Part shown: positions 3,219 to 26,643 of the stretch, in pieces
How positions within the stretch are numbered: the first letter of the stretch is position 1
Layout of the letters: each line of letters starts with the position of its first letter
Assembly (NCBI GenBank): GCA_015711755.1
Contig: JACVIY010000008.1
Location: forward strand, 1-38,798
Length of the DNA stretch: 38,798 nucleotides
Direction of reading: 5' to 3'
Origin: Candidatus Geothermincola secundus
GTDB taxonomy: Bacteria > Actinomycetota > Geothermincolia > Geothermincolales > Geothermincolaceae
Notes under the pieces: model-generated
What the model was told of the DNA's origin: nothing
The model's database searches: none
Seen by the model: the letters and a program-made list of their open reading frames with translations, nothing else
Position numbers and translations under genes: made by a program

Positions 3219-5318
3219 ATGGGTAGAAGGCACCGGATCATCGCATGCCTGCTCACCGCCATCCTGCTCGTCTTTCCGCCGGCCGGCGGGGGTTGCGGCG
3301 GCGGGGAGAGCATAGAGCTGACGCCGCTTCAAGAGCCGTCGGGGTTCTCGACGGTCTTTCCGCCCGTGGAAGCGCAGACGCCTTCAAACCCCCCACAGAA
3401 GCTCCCCCCGTCTCTGTCTTCCGTGAAGGGGATGGAGGGGATCGAGCTGACCTCAGGGGAAAGGGCCCTCCTCGCCGGCCGGGGCTTTATGATTTCATCG
3501 GCACCCCTCGACTCACTGGTCAGCCCGTATATGGAGTCGACGGCGCCGCCTTTCGTCACCCTGGACCTCCTCCTCTATGCGTTCATCCGCCTTTCTCGGC
3601 GGGCGGCTGTGGAGGCGGCCCGAGGGACACTTCGCGAGGATCTGCTCGCATTGAGCCTCGCCCTGATGCAGAGGTCCGCCGATCTCGCGGAGGCCGCGGG
3701 AAAGAAGGCCGCGGAGGCGGCCCGGGCCAACCGGGCTTTTTTCGGAGTGGCTGCGCGCCTGTTGGACGAAGGATGCCCGCTTCCCCCTGAGGTGGAGGAC
3801 GTGGTGGAGAGGGAGGTCCGCCTGGTGGAGGTAGCGAGCGGGGAGGAGTTCTCGCCCCTCTTCGGTTACCGCGTCGATTATCGGCTCTTCCGCCCCGAGG
3901 GAGCGCTGGCCGGGGATCCCCGGGCAGCCGACTTTTTCCGTGCGGCCGTCTGGTACGGAGCGATGGTCATGCGCGCGCGTCCCGGAGAGGAGGAAGCCCT
4001 GGTCGAACTGGGCAGGAGGGAGACGCGGCAAGCGGCCTTGGCCGTATCCGCCCTGCACACGGCGCGGGTGGGGGAAGGGTCCGCTTTGGATGTCTGGGAG
4101 AGGGTCTGGCAGTTCTGCCGCTTTTTTCTCTCCTGCACGGGAGGCCCGAGCGTTTATGACTACACTCGGGTTATGCGTGAGGTGTTGGGAGGGCGCTTCT
4201 TCCTCCGGGATTTGGAAGACGAGTCGAAAGTGGATGCCCTGGCGGGACGGCTGCTGGAGCAGCGGGCTGAGAACGATTACGGCTGGGGCCCCTGGGAGCG
4301 GGAGGAAAGGGGCCGCCTGGGACTGCGTTTTCTGGGGGAGCGGAAGCCCCCGGATCGCCTCGTGCGGGCATCCCTCACCGAACCGGCGGTGGCCGGGCGG
4401 GCTATGGGCTGCGGCCTCGATCTGCCTGCGTCGCTGGGCTCACAGCGGGCCCTCTCCATCATCATGACGCTCTACGGGGGCGAAGAGCATCCTGGACTCG
4501 ATGCGGACGTGGAGATGTTGCGGCGGTCCCTGGTAATGCGCGGCAGCCTCCTCGCGACCGGGGATCTATCCTGGGGCTTGCTGGAGGTCTTACGGCAGAT
4601 GTTGACACCGGGCGCTGGGGGGCTTCCGGCCTTCATGCTCACTCCCGCATGGCAGGATCGCTGCCTTTATGCCCTACTGGGGTCTTGGGTCGCCTGGCGG
4701 GGCAGCGGCGCGGAGGATGCTGATCGCGGGGAAGTCCCGGCGATGCGGGCGAGCGAAGCCCGGCAAGAGCGACCGCTGTCAACCGTCTCGGATGTTCTTC
4801 CAGGATATGTCGAACCCAACCCGGCCGCCCTGGCCCGCCTGTCCGCCCTGGCGGACATGACCGAGAGGGGATTGAGGGAGAAGGGTATGTTGGATGAGGA
4901 GCTGGGCCTGCGCTTTCGGGAGCTCGAGTCGCTGCTGGAGACGATGCGAGGAGCGGCCGCCAAGGAGCTCTCGGGTATTCCTTTCAGCGAGGAGGAGGCC
5001 TCGGTTTTCCGCCGACTCCCCGAGATGCTGCTGTCTCTGGAAATCGACGGTGCGGAACCGCTTCTTATCGGCTTTGGCGAGGATCCCGCGGAAGAAGCGG
5101 TGCTTCAGGTGGCGACGGGGGGGGCGGTGGTCTGCCACTTCGTCCTTTTCTATCAGGGCGCTTATCATTATGCGCGGGGAGGCGGGCTCAACTATTACGA
5201 AATCAGGCGCCCCAGCGGCGCTGAGCTTGACCCCGAGTCCTGGCGGCGGATGCTGGAAGGAGGGGAGGCGCCCCTTCCTCCTCCCTGGACCGACACCTTC
5301 CTCCGGCTCGGTGGCTGA
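3219..5318 (+). CDS. DUF3160-like lipoprotein
   Basis: Signal peptide with lipobox-like AGGGC; body (ERALLAGRGFMIS...FVTLDLLLYAFIRLSR...) resembles DUF3160 proteins. Confidence 0.7.
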   Translation: MGRRHRIIACLLTAILLVFPPAGGGCGGGESIELTPLQEPSGFSTVFPPVEAQTPSNPPQKLPPSLSSVKGMEGIELTSGERALLAGRGFMISSAPLDSLVSPYMESTAPPFVTLDLLLYAFIRLSRRAAVEAARGTLREDLLALSLALMQRSADLAEAAGKKAAEAARANRAFFGVAARLLDEGCPLPPEVEDVVEREVRLVEVASGEEFSPLFGYRVDYRLFRPEGALAGDPRAADFFRAAVWYGAMVMRARPGEEEALVELGRRETRQAALAVSALHTARVGEGSALDVWERVWQFCRFFLSCTGGPSVYDYTRVMREVLGGRFFLRDLEDESKVDALAGRLLEQRAENDYGWGPWEREERGRLGLRFLGERKPPDRLVRASLTEPAVAGRAMGCGLDLPASLGSQRALSIIMTLYGGEEHPGLDADVEMLRRSLVMRGSLLATGDLSWGLLEVLRQMLTPGAGGLPAFMLTPAWQDRCLYALLGSWVAWRGSGAEDADRGEVPAMRASEARQERPLSTVSDVLPGYVEPNPAALARLSALADMTERGLREKGMLDEELGLRFRELESLLETMRGAAAKELSGIPFSEEEASVFRRLPEMLLSLEIDGAEPLLIGFGEDPAEEAVLQVATGGAVVCHFVLFYQGAYHYARGGGLNYYEIRRPSGAELDPESWRRMLEGGEAPLPPPWTDTFLRLGG

Positions 5319-5380: not shown

Positions 5381-5523
5381 AAGGCGTCCGCTGAGAGGCA
5401 TCATCATTTGACAAAATGTAAAATGTGCAATGTGAAGGGCAGAAATATGAAGGGCTGAACCCGGATATGTTAACATAGCGGGCGAAATCGGCAATCTGGG
5501 TAGAAAGCAGAGGAGGAAAGATA

Positions 5524-6951
5524 ATGGCGGGCATCAAGTCTTTCGGAGCATACGTCCCGTGGCTGCGCTTGAGCCGCGAAGTCATCGCCAAGGGATGGGG
5601 GATCCCCGGGGCTCCCGGAACCGTGGCAGTAGCCAACTTCGACGAGGACAGCGTGACCATGGCGGTGGAAGCGGCCCTCAACTGCGTAGAGGGATTTGAC
5701 CCCGCTTCCATCGGGGGAGTTCTTTTCGCCTCCACCACCGCTCCTTATGCGGAGAAGTCCCTGGCCTCGCTGGTGGCCACGGTCCTGGATGCGCCGGAAA
5801 ACGCACATACCGCGGATTTTGCCGTCTCCCTACGCGCCTCCACATCGGCTTTGCTGACGGCACTCGACGCCGCCGCCTGCGGCAGGGCCGACAACATCGT
5901 GGTGACCGCGGGGGAGACGCGGGTGGCTGAGCCGATCACTCCCTGGGAACAGACTCTGGGCGACGGGGCGGGGGCTCTTCTGGTGGGAGAGGGCGAGGGG
6001 GTCATAGCCGAATATCTCGGTTTCCATTCGCTCAAGGACGAGATCATGTTCACCTGGCGCCGGGCTGAGGAAGACCATATGCTGCGGGAGTTCAACGCGC
6101 GCATGGCCCAGTCCATGGGATACGAGAAGGTGATGGTGCGGGCCATAAAGGGCGCCATGAAGGAGCTGGGCCTCTCTCCCGAGAGCGTAGCCCGGGCGGT
6201 GTTCACCGCCCCAGATTTTCGTTCCCACGGCCGCATCGCCGCCAAGTGCGGCTTCAACCCGACCGCCGGTCAGGTGCAGGATGCCCTCTTCGCCTTCGTG
6301 GGGGGCACGGGGACGGCCCAGCCCCTGATGATGATGGCCCATGCACTGGAGAGCGGGCTGAAAGAGGGAGACGTGGTGCTGCTGGCCCATTACGCCGACG
6401 GGGCCGACGTGTTGGCTTTCAAGGTGACCGGGGCCCTGGCTCAACTGCCGCCGCGGCGGGCGGTGAACTCCTGTCTCGCCGCGCAACATCCGCTGGACAG
6501 TCTGGCCCGTTTCATGCGCTACCGGGGGCTCACCGTTATCCCTACCCTGGATGACTTCGGCTCCCCCGTTCAGACCTGGCGCGACAACTCCCAGGTCTAT
6601 CCGCTGCATGGGGCCAAGTGCAATAAGTGCGGCTTTGTCCGCTTCCCCATCGACCGCGTCTGCGGCCGCTGCCGCGCGCGGGACGACAACACCGAGGTGC
6701 GCCTGGCCCGGCGGGGCAGGGTCTTCACCTTCATCCACGACAACCTCTATCCCGCGGTGGAACTGCCCACCACCCTGGCGGTGGTGGACCTGGAGGACGG
6801 GGCGCGCATCTTCCTGCAGATGACCGACCGGGTACCGGATGAGGTGGAGGTGGACATGGAGGTGGAACTGACCTTCCGCCTGATCCACAAGGGAGATGAA
6901 TGGAACCACTATTTCTGGAAGTGCCGCCCGGCGCGGCGGGGGGGTGAGTGA
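5524..6951 (+). CDS. HMG-CoA synthase-like (thiolase-fold) protein fused to a C-terminal zinc-ribbon/OB-fold (DUF35) domain
   Basis: N-terminal ~310 aa aligns along its length with archaeal-type HMGCS (IKSFGAYVP, APYAEKS, AVF..P...RIAAKCGF); C-terminus CNKCG...CGRCRARD followed by an OB-like segment. Confidence 0.85.
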   Translation: MAGIKSFGAYVPWLRLSREVIAKGWGIPGAPGTVAVANFDEDSVTMAVEAALNCVEGFDPASIGGVLFASTTAPYAEKSLASLVATVLDAPENAHTADFAVSLRASTSALLTALDAAACGRADNIVVTAGETRVAEPITPWEQTLGDGAGALLVGEGEGVIAEYLGFHSLKDEIMFTWRRAEEDHMLREFNARMAQSMGYEKVMVRAIKGAMKELGLSPESVARAVFTAPDFRSHGRIAAKCGFNPTAGQVQDALFAFVGGTGTAQPLMMMAHALESGLKEGDVVLLAHYADGADVLAFKVTGALAQLPPRRAVNSCLAAQHPLDSLARFMRYRGLTVIPTLDDFGSPVQTWRDNSQVYPLHGAKCNKCGFVRFPIDRVCGRCRARDDNTEVRLARRGRVFTFIHDNLYPAVELPTTLAVVDLEDGARIFLQMTDRVPDEVEVDMEVELTFRLIHKGDEWNHYFWKCRPARRGGE

Positions 6952-6952
6952 G

Positions 6953-8131
6953 ATGACCTGCTCCATCCACGATGTTGCCATCATCGGAGGGGGGGCTTCC
7001 AAGGTCTTCGGGGAGCAGTTCGGCAAGAGCGCCGACGACCTCCTTTTCGAGGCCTGCTTCGAGGCTCTGGACGACGCGGGGGTGGGGGTGGAGGAGATCC
7101 AGGCCGGCTGGATCGGCATCGCCTACCCCTTCACCGGCCTTTCCGGGGCCACCATGGCCGACCCCATCAAGCTGTACGACATCCCCATCACCCACACCGA
7201 GAACTACTGCTGCTCGGGAATGGATGCCTTCCGCAACGCCTGCCTGGCGGTAGCTTCGGGGATGTACGACATGGTCATGGCCTGCGGCGTGGAGAAGATA
7301 ACCGATCAAGGCGGACGCGGGCTCCCCGGGCTGGGACAGCAGCACCCGGTCATCTTCAGGGGCATAACCGCGCCGTCGGCCTTCGGCCTGGCTTTCGAGA
7401 GGCACCGCAAGGAGTTCGGGCTGACCCGCGAGGACCTCGCTCACGTGGCGGTGAAGAACCACGCCAACGGGGCGGCCCATCCCCGCGCCCACTTCCGCCG
7501 GGAGGTGACTCTGGAGCAGGTCATAAAAGCCCCCTCCATCTCCGGGCCCCTGGGCCTGCTGGACTGCTGCCCCATCTCCGACGGGGCCGCGGCTCTGGTC
7601 ATCACCCGTAAGGACATCGCCCGCAAGTACCGCGACGATTTCGTCACCGTCAGGGCTCTGGCCCTCTCGGTATATTCCAACTGGCTGCCGTTCCAGCCCG
7701 ACTTCGACTACCTGGCCTGGCGCCCCACGGTGAAGGCGGCCGAGCAGGCCTATCGGCAGGCGGGAATCGAGGACCCGCTGCGGGAGATAGACCTGGCCGA
7801 GGTGCACGACTGTTTCACCATCACCGAGATACTCAACATCGAGGACCTGGGCTTCTGCAGGAAAGGCGAGGGGGGGCGCTTCGTGCGGGAAGGCCGCGCC
7901 AACGTTGACGGTGATGTGGCCATCAACCCCTCGGGAGGCCTGAAGTGCTTCGGTCACCCCATCGGGGCCACCGGCTGCCGCATGGTATTCGAGGTGATGA
8001 GGCAGCTGCAGGGGCGGGCGGAAGGCAAGCAGCGCGAGGGAGCCAAGACGGGGATGGCCCACAACCTGGGGGGGCTGGGCGGCACCGTTTGCGGCATCGC
8101 CATCTTGAGCTCAGAGGACAGGTTCAAGTGA
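6953..8131 (+). CDS. thiolase family protein (SCP2/archaeal type)
   Basis: YCCSGMDAFRNA nucleophile Cys, EVHDCFTITE, GGLKCFGHPIGATG, C-terminal TVCGIAI; ATG 6953 is 1 nt after the preceding stop. Confidence 0.93.
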   Translation: MTCSIHDVAIIGGGASKVFGEQFGKSADDLLFEACFEALDDAGVGVEEIQAGWIGIAYPFTGLSGATMADPIKLYDIPITHTENYCCSGMDAFRNACLAVASGMYDMVMACGVEKITDQGGRGLPGLGQQHPVIFRGITAPSAFGLAFERHRKEFGLTREDLAHVAVKNHANGAAHPRAHFRREVTLEQVIKAPSISGPLGLLDCCPISDGAAALVITRKDIARKYRDDFVTVRALALSVYSNWLPFQPDFDYLAWRPTVKAAEQAYRQAGIEDPLREIDLAEVHDCFTITEILNIEDLGFCRKGEGGRFVREGRANVDGDVAINPSGGLKCFGHPIGATGCRMVFEVMRQLQGRAEGKQREGAKTGMAHNLGGLGGTVCGIAILSSEDRFK

Positions 8132-8178: not shown

Positions 8179-9393
8179 ATGACGCAGGGCTTCAGGCCGG
8201 ATTCTTTCTATGCGTTCGATCGCTGCGAGGAATGCGGCATGTGCCTCTTCCGCTGCCCTTCCCTGGGCCTGACCCTGCAGCGGGCCAGGGAAGAGATGAG
8301 GCGGCTGCGGCTGGGCGAGCCGGCACATCTCATCGACCGCCGCTGCGCCTCCTGCTTTTCCTGCAACACCTGGTGCCCCAACGGCTGCGACCCTTACGGG
8401 CTGATCCTCTACCGCTGGTTCGAGAGGTACAGGCGGATCGGCCTGCCGGTGCGGGCCCTTCCGGCCATGCCCCTGGAGAAGGGCAACACCACCGACATGG
8501 CCATGCGCCGCCATACCCCGCGGGAGAGGGATATGGTGGAGGAATGGCGGCGCAATGCCCGCGATCCCGGGAGGGTTGAGGAGGCGGGGGGCACCGTCCT
8601 CTACGCCGGCTGCAACGCCCTCATGTTCCCGTCTCTCCTGGACACATCGCTGCTGGGAGGGCTTACGGTCATGGGGGAGAAGGAGCTCTGCTGCGGGGAG
8701 GTCTATTTCCGACTGGGACTCTTCGACGTGGTGGAGAGGCAGGCGCGGGTGCTGGAGGAGCGCTTCCGGCGGCTGGGGGTCAGGAAATTGGTGGTCTTCT
8801 GTTCCGCCGGATATAACATGCTCAGCGACATTCTGCCGCGGCTCTTCGGCGCCCGCTTCGATTTCCGAACGGAATACCTGGGGGACTACTTGCTCCGAAG
8901 GATCAAGAGCGGTGAGCTGACCATGGGGCGCCTCGAGGGCCTTAGGGCCGCGGTCTCCGATACCTGTCACGGAAAGGTGCTGGGGCGCCGTTTCCTGGAG
9001 GTGCCGCGCCGCCTCTTGAACGAGATCGGGCTGGAGGTGGCGGAGATGCCCCGCAGCCGAGAGTATTCGGTGTGCTGCGGCGCCGCCTGCGGGGCCCGGC
9101 GCTGCAGCCCCCTGGACATGGGAAGGCAGGCGTTGGCCCAATGGGAGGAGGCGCGCAGGTCGGGCGCGGACATGCTGGTCACCTACTGCGCCACCTGCCT
9201 GCTGCTCCTGCACATCGGAAGGACTTTGCGGCCCGAGCGCCTCCCCCTTTTCCATCTGATGGAACTGCTGATGGAGAGCGTGGGGGAGGAGCCGCCCCAC
9301 CGACTGCTGGCCCGCCGCGCCCGCGGGGTCTTCGCCGGCGCCATGGCCGCGGGGGCTCCCTTGATGCTTTCGCGTCGGCGCGCGCGCTTATAA
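8179..9393 (+). CDS. (Fe-S)-binding protein, HdrD/GlpC-like with CCG domains
   Basis: CEECGMCLFRCP and CASCFSCNTWCPNGC cluster motifs; CCGEVYFRLG and CCGAACG cysteine-rich domains. Confidence 0.88.
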   Translation: MTQGFRPDSFYAFDRCEECGMCLFRCPSLGLTLQRAREEMRRLRLGEPAHLIDRRCASCFSCNTWCPNGCDPYGLILYRWFERYRRIGLPVRALPAMPLEKGNTTDMAMRRHTPRERDMVEEWRRNARDPGRVEEAGGTVLYAGCNALMFPSLLDTSLLGGLTVMGEKELCCGEVYFRLGLFDVVERQARVLEERFRRLGVRKLVVFCSAGYNMLSDILPRLFGARFDFRTEYLGDYLLRRIKSGELTMGRLEGLRAAVSDTCHGKVLGRRFLEVPRRLLNEIGLEVAEMPRSREYSVCCGAACGARRCSPLDMGRQALAQWEEARRSGADMLVTYCATCLLLLHIGRTLRPERLPLFHLMELLMESVGEEPPHRLLARRARGVFAGAMAAGAPLMLSRRRARL

Positions 9394-17299: not shown

Positions 17300-18406
17300 A
17301 TGGCGATGAAGGTCAAGAAATGCAAGGTATGCGGATTCTGCATCCCGCTGGCGAGGTTCCTTCGTTTCAACGACAACGGGACCATAACCGAGCGGCTGAT
17401 GCCCGATTTCCGGGCGGTGCTCATCGAGGCGGATTTCATCACCGAGGTCTTCAGGCGCATAGAGAACGACCTGGGCGTGTCGGTCCAGCATATCGTATTC
17501 GAGGCCCAGCGAGCCGCCTCCAAGGCGGTCATCGATTCCAACATCAAAGGGATTCTGGCGGGAGCCCGGGTAGGGGCGGCCAAGAATATAACCGTCAACA
17601 TGTTCTGTCAGGTGGCCATCTGGACGGGGCAGGCCTATGCGGAAACCGTGGTCTACAAGCCCAAAAAATACGGGGAGGCCATCCTGCGAAACCCCTTCAA
17701 CCGGGACATCATGGCCGCGGTCATCGTGGGCGCTTTCGAGAGCTTGGAGAAGATGCCCTTCAAGCATACCTGGGTCAACAAGAGGGGGGAGGAGCTCATC
17801 CTGGTCCGGCCGGACAGCGCCCGCCCGCCCCTCGCCGACCGCATCAAGATAGAGATCGTCAAACCCAAGCCGGGCAACCGCAGCTTCGAGCGCTGCCCGG
17901 AATGCGGGGTCCCCATCGGGCTTTCCGGTCTGGACTGGCAGGAGGACAAGGGCATAATCATGGAGATGCGCCGGGGAGTGCGCATGGTCTTCCTCGATTC
18001 CTACGTGCCTCAGGTGGTATTCCAGGAGCTCACCCGGGAGTTCGGAGATCTGGTCTATCCCACCGTGGTGGACGCCATGAAGAACTTCTCCCTGAAGTGG
18101 CTGAAGGCTGAATACCTTGACCGCGACATGGAGCTGTTCGCCAACCGCGAGAAGCTCTACGCGGAGGTGCTGGAGAACTTGGCCCTGCGCGGCCAGGGCA
18201 ACCCCGTGGCCTTCTCGTCGGACAGCGACAAGATGATCGTGACCGTGGAGAATCCTTATAACCCCCACCTGCTGGCGGGGCATCTGTCGGCCATGTACGA
18301 ACTGGGCGAGGGCAGGCGGGCCAACGTGGAATGGCAGTACCTGGACGAGGCCACCATTCACTTCACCTTGACGCCGCGCAGGTCCTCGCAGGTGATGGCG
18401 GTCTGA
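17300..18406 (+). CDS. uncharacterised internally duplicated CxxC protein (paralogue A)
   Basis: Two ~180-aa modules starting KCKVCG and RCPECG; C-module ends VENPYNPHLLAGHLSAMYELGEGRRANVEW; paralogous to 25564-26643. Confidence 0.8.
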   Translation: MAMKVKKCKVCGFCIPLARFLRFNDNGTITERLMPDFRAVLIEADFITEVFRRIENDLGVSVQHIVFEAQRAASKAVIDSNIKGILAGARVGAAKNITVNMFCQVAIWTGQAYAETVVYKPKKYGEAILRNPFNRDIMAAVIVGAFESLEKMPFKHTWVNKRGEELILVRPDSARPPLADRIKIEIVKPKPGNRSFERCPECGVPIGLSGLDWQEDKGIIMEMRRGVRMVFLDSYVPQVVFQELTREFGDLVYPTVVDAMKNFSLKWLKAEYLDRDMELFANREKLYAEVLENLALRGQGNPVAFSSDSDKMIVTVENPYNPHLLAGHLSAMYELGEGRRANVEWQYLDEATIHFTLTPRRSSQVMAV

Positions 18407-25187: not shown

Positions 25188-25563
25188 GTCGCACCTCCCT
25201 CAATGCGTTCCCGCCTGCCGCCATGGATGGCCGCGGATTTCGGCGAGACCCTTCTTTTAGTTCTTACCCGCCTATTATAAAGGGAGGGAGCGGGGGGGTC
25301 ATTTCAGGGACAAGGAGCCCCGTTCATCGAAGAAAGAAGGCACCTTTGAAAAGCGTTCTTCACGCCGCTTGGGGGCGGGATCTGCGGACTCGATGCGAGG
25401 TTGGTTAAATGAGATGCGTCGACCCGGTCGGGACTTCCCAAGGCGCCCTTCAAGTTATAATCGTCACTTAGGGAAGGCGGCCGATAAGGCCAGTCAGGCG
25501 AGGCAAGAAGCTGCGCAGCGCGTGGCTGCACCGAGCCGCTGCCTTTGGGAGGAGGATGGCTGC

Positions 25564-26643
25564 ATGACCATGAAGCGCTGCCGGGAATGCGAGACGCCGC
25601 TGATCTTCGGCAGGAGCATAATCTGGACGGGCGGCGGCACCGTTGCCGCCCGAGCCCTTCCCGAACTGCGGCTCTTCTTCATCGAGATAGACGAACTCAT
25701 CAACCTGCTCTCCTACCTCGGCGAGCTGTTGGGAACCCCCATTGACCACATCCTCATGGAATCGGAGAGGCCCATCGGGAGGGCTATGGTGGAGGCGACC
25801 CTGCCGCCCCTCTTAATCAGGGCGGTTCGCTGCATACCGGACGCCTTCCAGAGATTCTTCTTCGCCCGCGGGGCCTTCCGCCGCATCGCCGATTACGCCC
25901 GGGCCATGGGGTACGGCAGCATCACCATGATCGCCTATGAGGGCCGCAGGCGCAGCCTCATGCGGGTCCGCAACCCCCACTCCATCCCACTCATCATCGG
26001 GGACTGCCTGGGGGCGTTTCAGCTTATATTGGGCGTGAACATGAGCGTGGAGTGGAAGAGGGAGAACGGCACCACCCTCATCGAGTTCCGCCGGACCGAG
26101 GAGAAACCCTACGATGTCCCCATACCTCGCGCTCCCTACCTCGAGGGACAGGCGGAACTGGCGCGCTGCCCGCGCTGCCGGGCGCCGCTGCTGTTGCGGG
26201 AGACCTTCGAATGGGACCTGGTGAACGGCATCATCACCAACCGGCGCACAGCATACCGAGAGGCCTTCCTCTCGGTTGAGGGCATCAATGCCATCTTCTC
26301 GGAGATGGAGAGAGAATTGGGAGAGGAGATCCCCCTGGTGGTGGCCCGAAGGCAGGCCGACCTCATGCGCGAGCGCCTCTCCAGAAGGAAGCTGGACGAG
26401 GAGGGCGGCTTGCTTGCCGTCTTCCAGGAAATGCAGCTCAGAGGAATGGGCAACCCGGTGGAGGTGGAGGAGATAGGCAGGCAGCTTAAGGTGAGGGTGG
26501 AGAACCCCTTCAACGATGCCCTGGTGGCCGGGAGGATAGCGGGTTGCTACGAGGCCCTGGAAGGGGTGCGCAGCAAGATGAGTTGGGTCTCCAGCGAGGA
26601 CGGCTACGTGGTGGTGGGGGTGGAGCCGGCTTCGGATGGATGA
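25564..26643 (+). CDS. uncharacterised internally duplicated CxxC protein (paralogue B)
   Basis: Modules start RCRECE and RCPRCR; NP-S/N..L..G...F/YE-like segments twice (VRNPHSIPLIIGDCLGAFQ; VENPFNDALVAGRIAGCYEAL). Confidence 0.8.
   Translation: MTMKRCRECETPLIFGRSIIWTGGGTVAARALPELRLFFIEIDELINLLSYLGELLGTPIDHILMESERPIGRAMVEATLPPLLIRAVRCIPDAFQRFFFARGAFRRIADYARAMGYGSITMIAYEGRRRSLMRVRNPHSIPLIIGDCLGAFQLILGVNMSVEWKRENGTTLIEFRRTEEKPYDVPIPRAPYLEGQAELARCPRCRAPLLLRETFEWDLVNGIITNRRTAYREAFLSVEGINAIFSEMERELGEEIPLVVARRQADLMRERLSRRKLDEEGGLLAVFQEMQLRGMGNPVEVEEIGRQLKVRVENPFNDALVAGRIAGCYEALEGVRSKMSWVSSEDGYVVVGVEPASDG

Follow-up and report, generated by a model that had tools for sequence, protein, structure and literature searches.

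The stretch of DNA analysed here (the window, 38,798 nucleotides from Candidatus Geothermincola secundus) carries two adjacent genes on the forward strand, the first encoding a protein in which an HMG-CoA synthase (HMGCS) fold is fused to a zinc ribbon and a DUF35 OB-fold, and the second a thiolase (Table 1). As an earlier note on this DNA had described, a single base separates the stop codon of the fusion gene (TGA, 6949–6951) from the start codon of the thiolase gene (ATG, 6953). A gene for a DUF3160 protein lies upstream of this pair, and one for a CCG-domain Fe-S protein, a probable member of the same operon, lies downstream. A scan for promoters and terminators returned nothing informative.

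Table 1. Features of the fusion–thiolase locus, with their positions in the window.
Feature	Position	Strand	Evidence and remarks
DUF3160 protein, upstream of the fusion gene	3219–5318	+	Also near the fusion in L082, L083 and L084 (same family and order)
Ribosome-binding-site-like GAGGAGG, 5' of the fusion gene	5510–5516	+	Sequence
HMGCS-fold/DUF35 fusion protein, 475 aa	5524–6951	+	ORF list, Pfam, profile search, phmmer, AlphaFold2, Foldseek
HMGCS-fold domain, about aa 1–335	5524–6528	+	phmmer to 6esq_I, 5m3k_A and 9vbo_A; NF003274, 157 bits (under the cut-off of 244)
T71, opposite the HMGCS catalytic Glu82	5734–5736	+	phmmer alignment with 6esq chain I
L103, opposite the HMGCS nucleophile Cys114	5830–5832	+	phmmer alignment with 6esq chain I
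T228, opposite the HMGCS catalytic His	6205–6207	+	phmmer alignment with 6esq chain I
G261, opposite the HMGCS catalytic Asn	6304–6306	+	phmmer alignment with 6esq chain I
Zinc ribbon (zf-ChsH2), aa 363–387	6610–6684	+	Pfam, alignment; C366, C369, C380 and C383 invariant in relatives
OB-fold (OB_ChsH2_C, DUF35), aa 391–452	6694–6879	+	Pfam; aligns with 6esq_E
SCP2/archaeal-type thiolase, 392 aa	6953–8131	+	NF004810/PRK06157, 485 bits (cut-off 403)
Cys86, thiolase nucleophile	7208–7210	+	Invariant in 64/64 aligned thiolases
HDCF motif, His285-Asp286-Cys287-Phe288	7805–7816	+	Invariant in 64/64 aligned thiolases
His335 of the GHP motif	7955–7957	+	Invariant in 64/64 aligned thiolases
CCG-domain Fe-S protein, 47 bases 3' of the thiolase gene	8179–9393	+	Pfam CCG; same place in the same-family genome L082

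The N-terminal 335 residues of the fusion protein match the archaeal HMGCS of 6esq (phmmer E-value 7e-24), and the protein scores below the curated cut-offs of both HMG-CoA synthase profiles, TIGR00748 (115 against 353 bits) and NF003274, the best-scoring one (Table 1). A single-chain AlphaFold2 model, built with 73 sequences, has a pLDDT of 94.2 and a pTM of 0.94. Comparison of such a model with archaeal HMGCS had been set as a check in the earlier note, and the best Foldseek match is the HMGCS of 6esq (TM-score on the target 0.90 for 6esq_J, and 0.91 for 6et9_I), followed by PhlA of CsATase and of PhlABC and by MucA of MucABC, with ordinary HMGCS and FabH later in the list. The C-terminal zinc-ribbon/DUF35 region claimed from the sequence was recovered as two Pfam domains, both over their curated cut-offs. 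An N-terminal Trp-Arg segment in the DUF35 part is common to 6esq chain E and PhlB; W352 is nearly invariant, and R353 invariant, among the aligned relatives.

The fold of HMGCS is therefore present, but its catalytic Glu, Cys and His are not, the corresponding residues being T71, L103 and T228; the Asn position is occupied by G261. These are the four positions named in the earlier note, and the reference motifs given there agree with the 6esq alignment. The thiolase shows a different picture, with the nucleophilic Cys, the HDCF motif and the GHP motif of SCP2-type thiolases all in place, in the alignment and in line with Foldseek matches to 6hrv and 6hsp; the HDCF motif is named for SCP2 thiolases in PMC12329534. 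Its single-chain AlphaFold2 model (pLDDT 90.3) has as its nearest structure, by Foldseek, the thiolase of the archaeal thiolase/HMGCS/DUF35 complex, with 37% identity to 6et9_C, as compared to 25–27% to the PhlC chains and 22% to the thiolase-like chain of MucABC. The description of the thiolase as intact thus holds, except that the second catalytic Cys of this SCP2-type thiolase is expected within the HDCF motif (Cys287), and is not the C-terminal Cys that had been listed.

A survey of orthologues for the same substitutions had been proposed, and a scan of GTDB genomes yielded 77 loci. From these loci and the window's genome, 77 distinct fusions with a length of 380 residues or more were analysed, counting the window's own protein and its paralogue. 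The position of the catalytic Glu is a Thr in all of these except two, which have Ser, and is never Glu; that of the nucleophile is Leu, Thr, Val, Met, Ile or Gln, with one gap, and never Cys. The His position is chiefly Tyr, Pro or Asp, with His in two fusions, and the Asn is kept in most relatives, but missing in the window's subgroup and some others. Within the window's orthologue group, the four positions read T, L, T/S/P/G/A, and G or W. Glu and Cys are likewise missing from six relatives carried on plasmids of named organisms, one of which has Ala at the T71 position; the six accompanying thiolases retain Cys86, Cys287 and His335. A defect limited to this gene or to this assembly can be ruled out from the 77-fusion survey and the orthologue group.

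As a control, all 30 archaeal TIGR00748 proteins from the phylum of L077 retain the E/C/H/N set, as does a divergent Lokiarchaeota protein (L097). Fusion to DUF35 can also be ruled out as the cause of inactivity, as two archaeal HMGCS fused to DUF35 (L116 and L096) still possess all four residues. Two archaeal genomes encode both kinds of protein, an intact one and an incomplete one (L096 with L098, and L097 with L099, respectively). In L096 and L126–L129, from Bathyarchaeota-type archaea, the intact HMGCS lies in ORFs of ∼500 residues, and in L096 it forms the C-terminal part (residues 165–498), the reverse of the bacterial fusion order.

The family with this residue pattern is spread over Chloroflexota, Actinomycetota, Desulfobacterota, Myxococcota, Pseudomonadota and some archaea. 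Of the 77 fusions, 68 are followed by a thiolase ORF on the same strand, 64 of them at a distance of no more than 200 bases; among the rest, several lie at the end of a contig. The proposal that the protein is a bacterial derivative has to be broadened, since a Lokiarchaeota genome encodes a fusion of the same kind and a Bathyarchaeota genome an unfused protein that is also catalytically incomplete, and there is a distinct second copy in the window's own genome. In a tree computed without the four catalytic positions, whose root is not fixed, the fused incomplete proteins form one clade (34 rows, 99/99) and the intact archaeal HMGCS another (99/96). The placement of PhlA and MucA differs between trees, one putting them on the family's side of a branch (64/93), and the one without the four positions putting them nearer to the intact clade (86/67). 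The window's pair shares the features of the family, namely the HMGCS–DUF35 order, the absence of Glu and Cys, the adjacent thiolase and the position within the clade.

KAS III-like proteins of the same class possess the Cys, His and Asn, with A, V or G at the Glu position. The loss of Cys and His is secure, because this outgroup has both. In contrast, the Glu is absent from the KAS III-like proteins, and may therefore be a gain of true HMGCS that was never present in the fusion lineage. The states of both Glu and Asn are ambiguous, and the earlier claim that all four residues were lost is accepted only partly as literal history. Sequence change has been faster in the HMGCS-like domain than in the accompanying thiolase (median ratio of Kimura distances 1.52, quartiles 1.35–1.72, 2049 pairs), while for intact archaeal HMGCS the median ratio is 0.77 (88 pairs); the pairs are drawn from related sequences and are not independent, and the two sets come from different organisms, so that this is a tendency and not a test.

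The closest architectural parallel is the archaeal complex of Methanothermococcus thermolithotrophicus (6esq/6et9), in which DUF35 joins the thiolase and HMGCS round a shared CoA site (PMC6392133, PMC12329534). It has in common with the window's pair the three modules, the adjacency of the genes, the closest thiolase and the Trp-Arg segment of DUF35. The window's pair differs in that the HMGCS catalytic residues are missing, so that channelling of acetoacetyl-CoA to an active HMGCS does not apply, that HMGCS and DUF35 form one polypeptide, and that no mevalonate pathway was seen. PhlABC keeps the archaeal architecture, but PhlA has neither Cys nor Glu, and the residues of PhlC alone act (PMC6392133); activity nonetheless needs co-expression of all three genes (PMC6392133). 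PhlA had already been described in 2010 as an inactive member of the thiolase superfamily, alongside DUF35 and an active member (PMC2954200), and it is a structurally proven precedent for a non-catalytic HMGCS-fold subunit. In PhlABC/CsATase (5m3k, 5mg5, 9skh) the DUF35 protein is a separate chain, the substrates are phenols without CoA, PhlA falls outside the fused clade, and the thiolase is distant (see above). In MucABC of Streptococcus macacae (9vbo, 9vbt), the HMGCS-fold subunit, accompanied by a thiolase-fold subunit, carries C/E/Q/Y at the four positions, and thus MucA is likewise without the HMGCS catalytic residues (phmmer alignment, 9vbo_A); its chains are separate and distant in sequence, and the reaction proposed for the complex is C-3 acetylation of a tetramate. 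Finally, the benzoylsuccinyl-CoA thiolase BbsAB, Ltp2/ChsH2 and the Sal/Shy aldolases combine a thiolase fold with a DUF35 partner in degradative CoA-ester pathways, but have no HMGCS-fold subunit, which sets the window's pair apart from such two-component enzymes. A paper on acetone degradation reports a DUF35 protein near an acetyl-CoA acetyltransferase, and contains nothing on an HMGCS-like partner (PMC8084838).

The family thus follows the archaeal/PhlABC plan, except that two modules out of three are joined in one protein, suggesting an active thiolase, a structural HMGCS fold and a DUF35 bridge. I consider it likely that the two genes encode one heteromeric thiolase, in which the fusion protein would probably be an obligatory non-catalytic subunit, contributing a scaffold or CoA site. 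The thiolase would be the only catalytic subunit, acting through Cys86, His285/Cys287 and His335. The fusion protein would supply two non-catalytic modules, an HMGCS-fold pseudoenzyme and DUF35, each of which is a chain of its own in the archaeal complex and in PhlABC; DUF35 may hold the pseudoenzyme to the thiolase and complete an acyl-CoA-binding cavity at the interface, with the HMGCS fold serving a structural and cavity-forming role. I infer the formation of the complex and its shared cavity or CoA site by analogy with 6esq and PhlABC, and likewise the stoichiometry of the predicted assembly. The idea, already put forward in the earlier note, of a pseudoenzyme partner for the thiolase is the best supported of the readings considered: no relative has the Glu or the Cys, the positions opposite the HMGCS His and Asn belong to the variable ones, the thiolase residues are invariant, the genes are adjacent, and PhlA provides a precedent, to which MucA, the fold, the faster divergence, the lack of a detected HMG-CoA reductase and the degradative neighbours of relatives can be added.

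As for the reaction, I favour thiolysis of a beta-ketoacyl-CoA as a step of a degradative pathway. This is suggested by the neighbours of relatives, whose operons include genes for acyl-CoA dehydrogenase, ETF, CoA transferases and 3-hydroxyacyl-CoA dehydrogenase; around the plasmid-borne pairs there are, among others, genes for CoA transferase, acyl-CoA dehydrogenase, enoyl-CoA hydratase and a ring-hydroxylating dioxygenase, and one relative belongs to the estrogen-degradation cluster described below. In many bacteria, the two proteins probably work together as a single complex that processes acyl-CoA. A degradative setting is not apparent from the neighbours in the window itself, which count against the explanation: the two immediate ones are not beta-oxidation genes, and genes for an enoyl-CoA hydratase, an acyl-CoA dehydrogenase and a canonical thiolase lie 14–21 kb from the pair.

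The complex could instead be a C-acyltransferase of the PhlABC/MucABC type, transferring an acyl group to a non-CoA acceptor. The window's pair does have the same modules (an HMGCS fold without catalytic residues, DUF35 and an active-type thiolase-fold subunit), and PhlABC and MucABC, the two characterised complexes whose HMGCS-like subunit is incomplete, are both acyltransferases. I nevertheless regard this as unlikely, since the thiolase is closest to the archaeal acetoacetyl-CoA thiolase and SCP2 thiolases and keeps the HDCF motif, the relatives adjoin acyl-CoA dehydrogenase, ETF and CoA transferase genes, and the fused clade is separate from PhlA and MucA in the tree without the four positions.

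The pattern of conservation bears on another possibility, that the former pocket of the HMGCS-fold domain now serves some other purpose, catalytic or acyl-sensing, through the conserved T71/T72, R104 or E142. T71 is among the most conserved positions of the family, being Thr or Ser in every fusion from the scanned loci, E142 is invariant, and T72 is Thr or Ser throughout; the FASTTxPY segment, T71 included, is conserved more strongly than bare scaffolding would need, which counts against a purely structural role. However, there is no conserved nucleophile at the Cys position, and the positions opposite the HMGCS His and Asn are free to vary within one orthologue group and lie at the 72nd and 66th entropy percentiles of the family, respectively, more variable than about two thirds of positions. 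PhlA, with a similar loss, has no direct part in acyl transfer, and T71 is replaced by Ala in one plasmid-borne member. Overall this appears improbable, and the same low expectation applies to an acyl-CoA-sensing or proton-relay site formed, for example, by T71/T72 and E142. If true, a widespread class of bacterial thiolases would be controlled by a re-purposed second active site.

That the gene is merely decaying and functionless is very improbable: the faster divergence of the domain would agree with decay, but the frame is open, the zinc ligands are invariant, the alignment of 73 sequences has 18 invariant columns, the fusion co-occurs with the thiolase across phyla and has a second copy near-universal in the class, and conservation across at least 70 genomes rules decay out. 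A working HMG-CoA synthase with displaced catalytic residues has a negligible probability, despite the fold and profile similarity to archaeal HMGCS, and is largely ruled out by the scores under both cut-offs, by the aligned positions in a confidently modelled fold, and by the genome, in which DXR of the MEP pathway is present, whereas a search for HMG-CoA reductase found none and no sign of a mevalonate route was seen (genome 82.9% complete). Among 32 genomes of the class, none encodes an archaeal-type HMGCS over the cut-off.

The reading of the pair as a heteromeric thiolase with a non-catalytic subunit may also bear on an estrogen-degradation gene. In the edc operon of Novosphingobium tardaugens, a gene annotated as HMG-CoA synthase (EGO55_13555) lies next to a thiolase gene (EGO55_13550), as in the window; the authors found it hard to explain, because a condensation activity makes no sense in estrogen degradation, and supposed another activity (PMC7793797). 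In Novosphingobium sp. ES2-1, the HMGCS-like member of the syntenic pair is fused to DUF35 and reads T/L/S/F at the four positions. The gene order there (P450, OB-fold protein, lipid-transfer protein, hydratases, thiolase, fusion, SDR, acyl-CoA dehydrogenase), in a cluster divergent from a group with indolepyruvate ferredoxin oxidoreductase, matches the edc operon (PMC7793797). The ES2-1 fusion is 34% identical to the window's and belongs to an estrogen pathway of aerobic Alphaproteobacteria, and the N. tardaugens gene is likened to it by gene order alone. A candidate, and testable, answer to the puzzle is that this "HMG-CoA synthase" is the partner of the neighbouring thiolase, and not an enzyme by itself.

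Since the HMGCS catalytic residues are absent and the same pair occurs in many bacteria, the commonly used label "HMG-CoA synthase" is wrong for the fusion, and a large family with this residue pattern is easily mistaken for that enzyme. The archaeal, unfused protein of L098 (1495–2517, + strand; T/T/P/D at the four positions) scores 344 bits against NF003274, over the cut-off of this "equivalog" model, and would therefore be named HMG-CoA synthase despite its missing catalytic residues. The principle is already known. The present analysis adds how broadly the two-gene form with its fusion is distributed, shows that residue pattern and tree both set it apart from true HMGCS, and connects it to the unexplained estrogen-degradation gene.

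The second fusion–thiolase pair of this genome, on contig C33, is 36% identical to the first and is followed by a FAD/4Fe-4S/CCG protein; this C33-type pair was found in nearly all of the 32 class genomes searched. A CCG-domain Fe-S protein is a recurrent neighbour of such pairs, as in the window, in L003 (2769–5807, − strand) and in L067 (1096–3204, + strand), in the latter together with ETF subunits; these proteins may carry off the electrons from acyl-CoA oxidation. A conserved small protein of ∼109 residues with an SCCG-type motif, for which the members scanned gave no Pfam or NCBIfam match, is encoded near the pair in L003 (8821–9156, − strand) and in 11 other loci, and directly upstream of it in several, including this genome's paralogue. 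Elsewhere in the window, the products of 17300–18406 and 25369–26643 (both + strand), the second without a Pfam match, start with a CxxC-type motif and are alike by eye. In Dehalococcoidia/SAR202, a minC gene (confirmed by Pfam for L031) and a minD-like gene (called by eye) often lie close to the pair, with 16 such loci in the clustering and a downstream position in L023, L024 and L065; this neighbourhood is conserved, yet metabolically unrelated to the pair.
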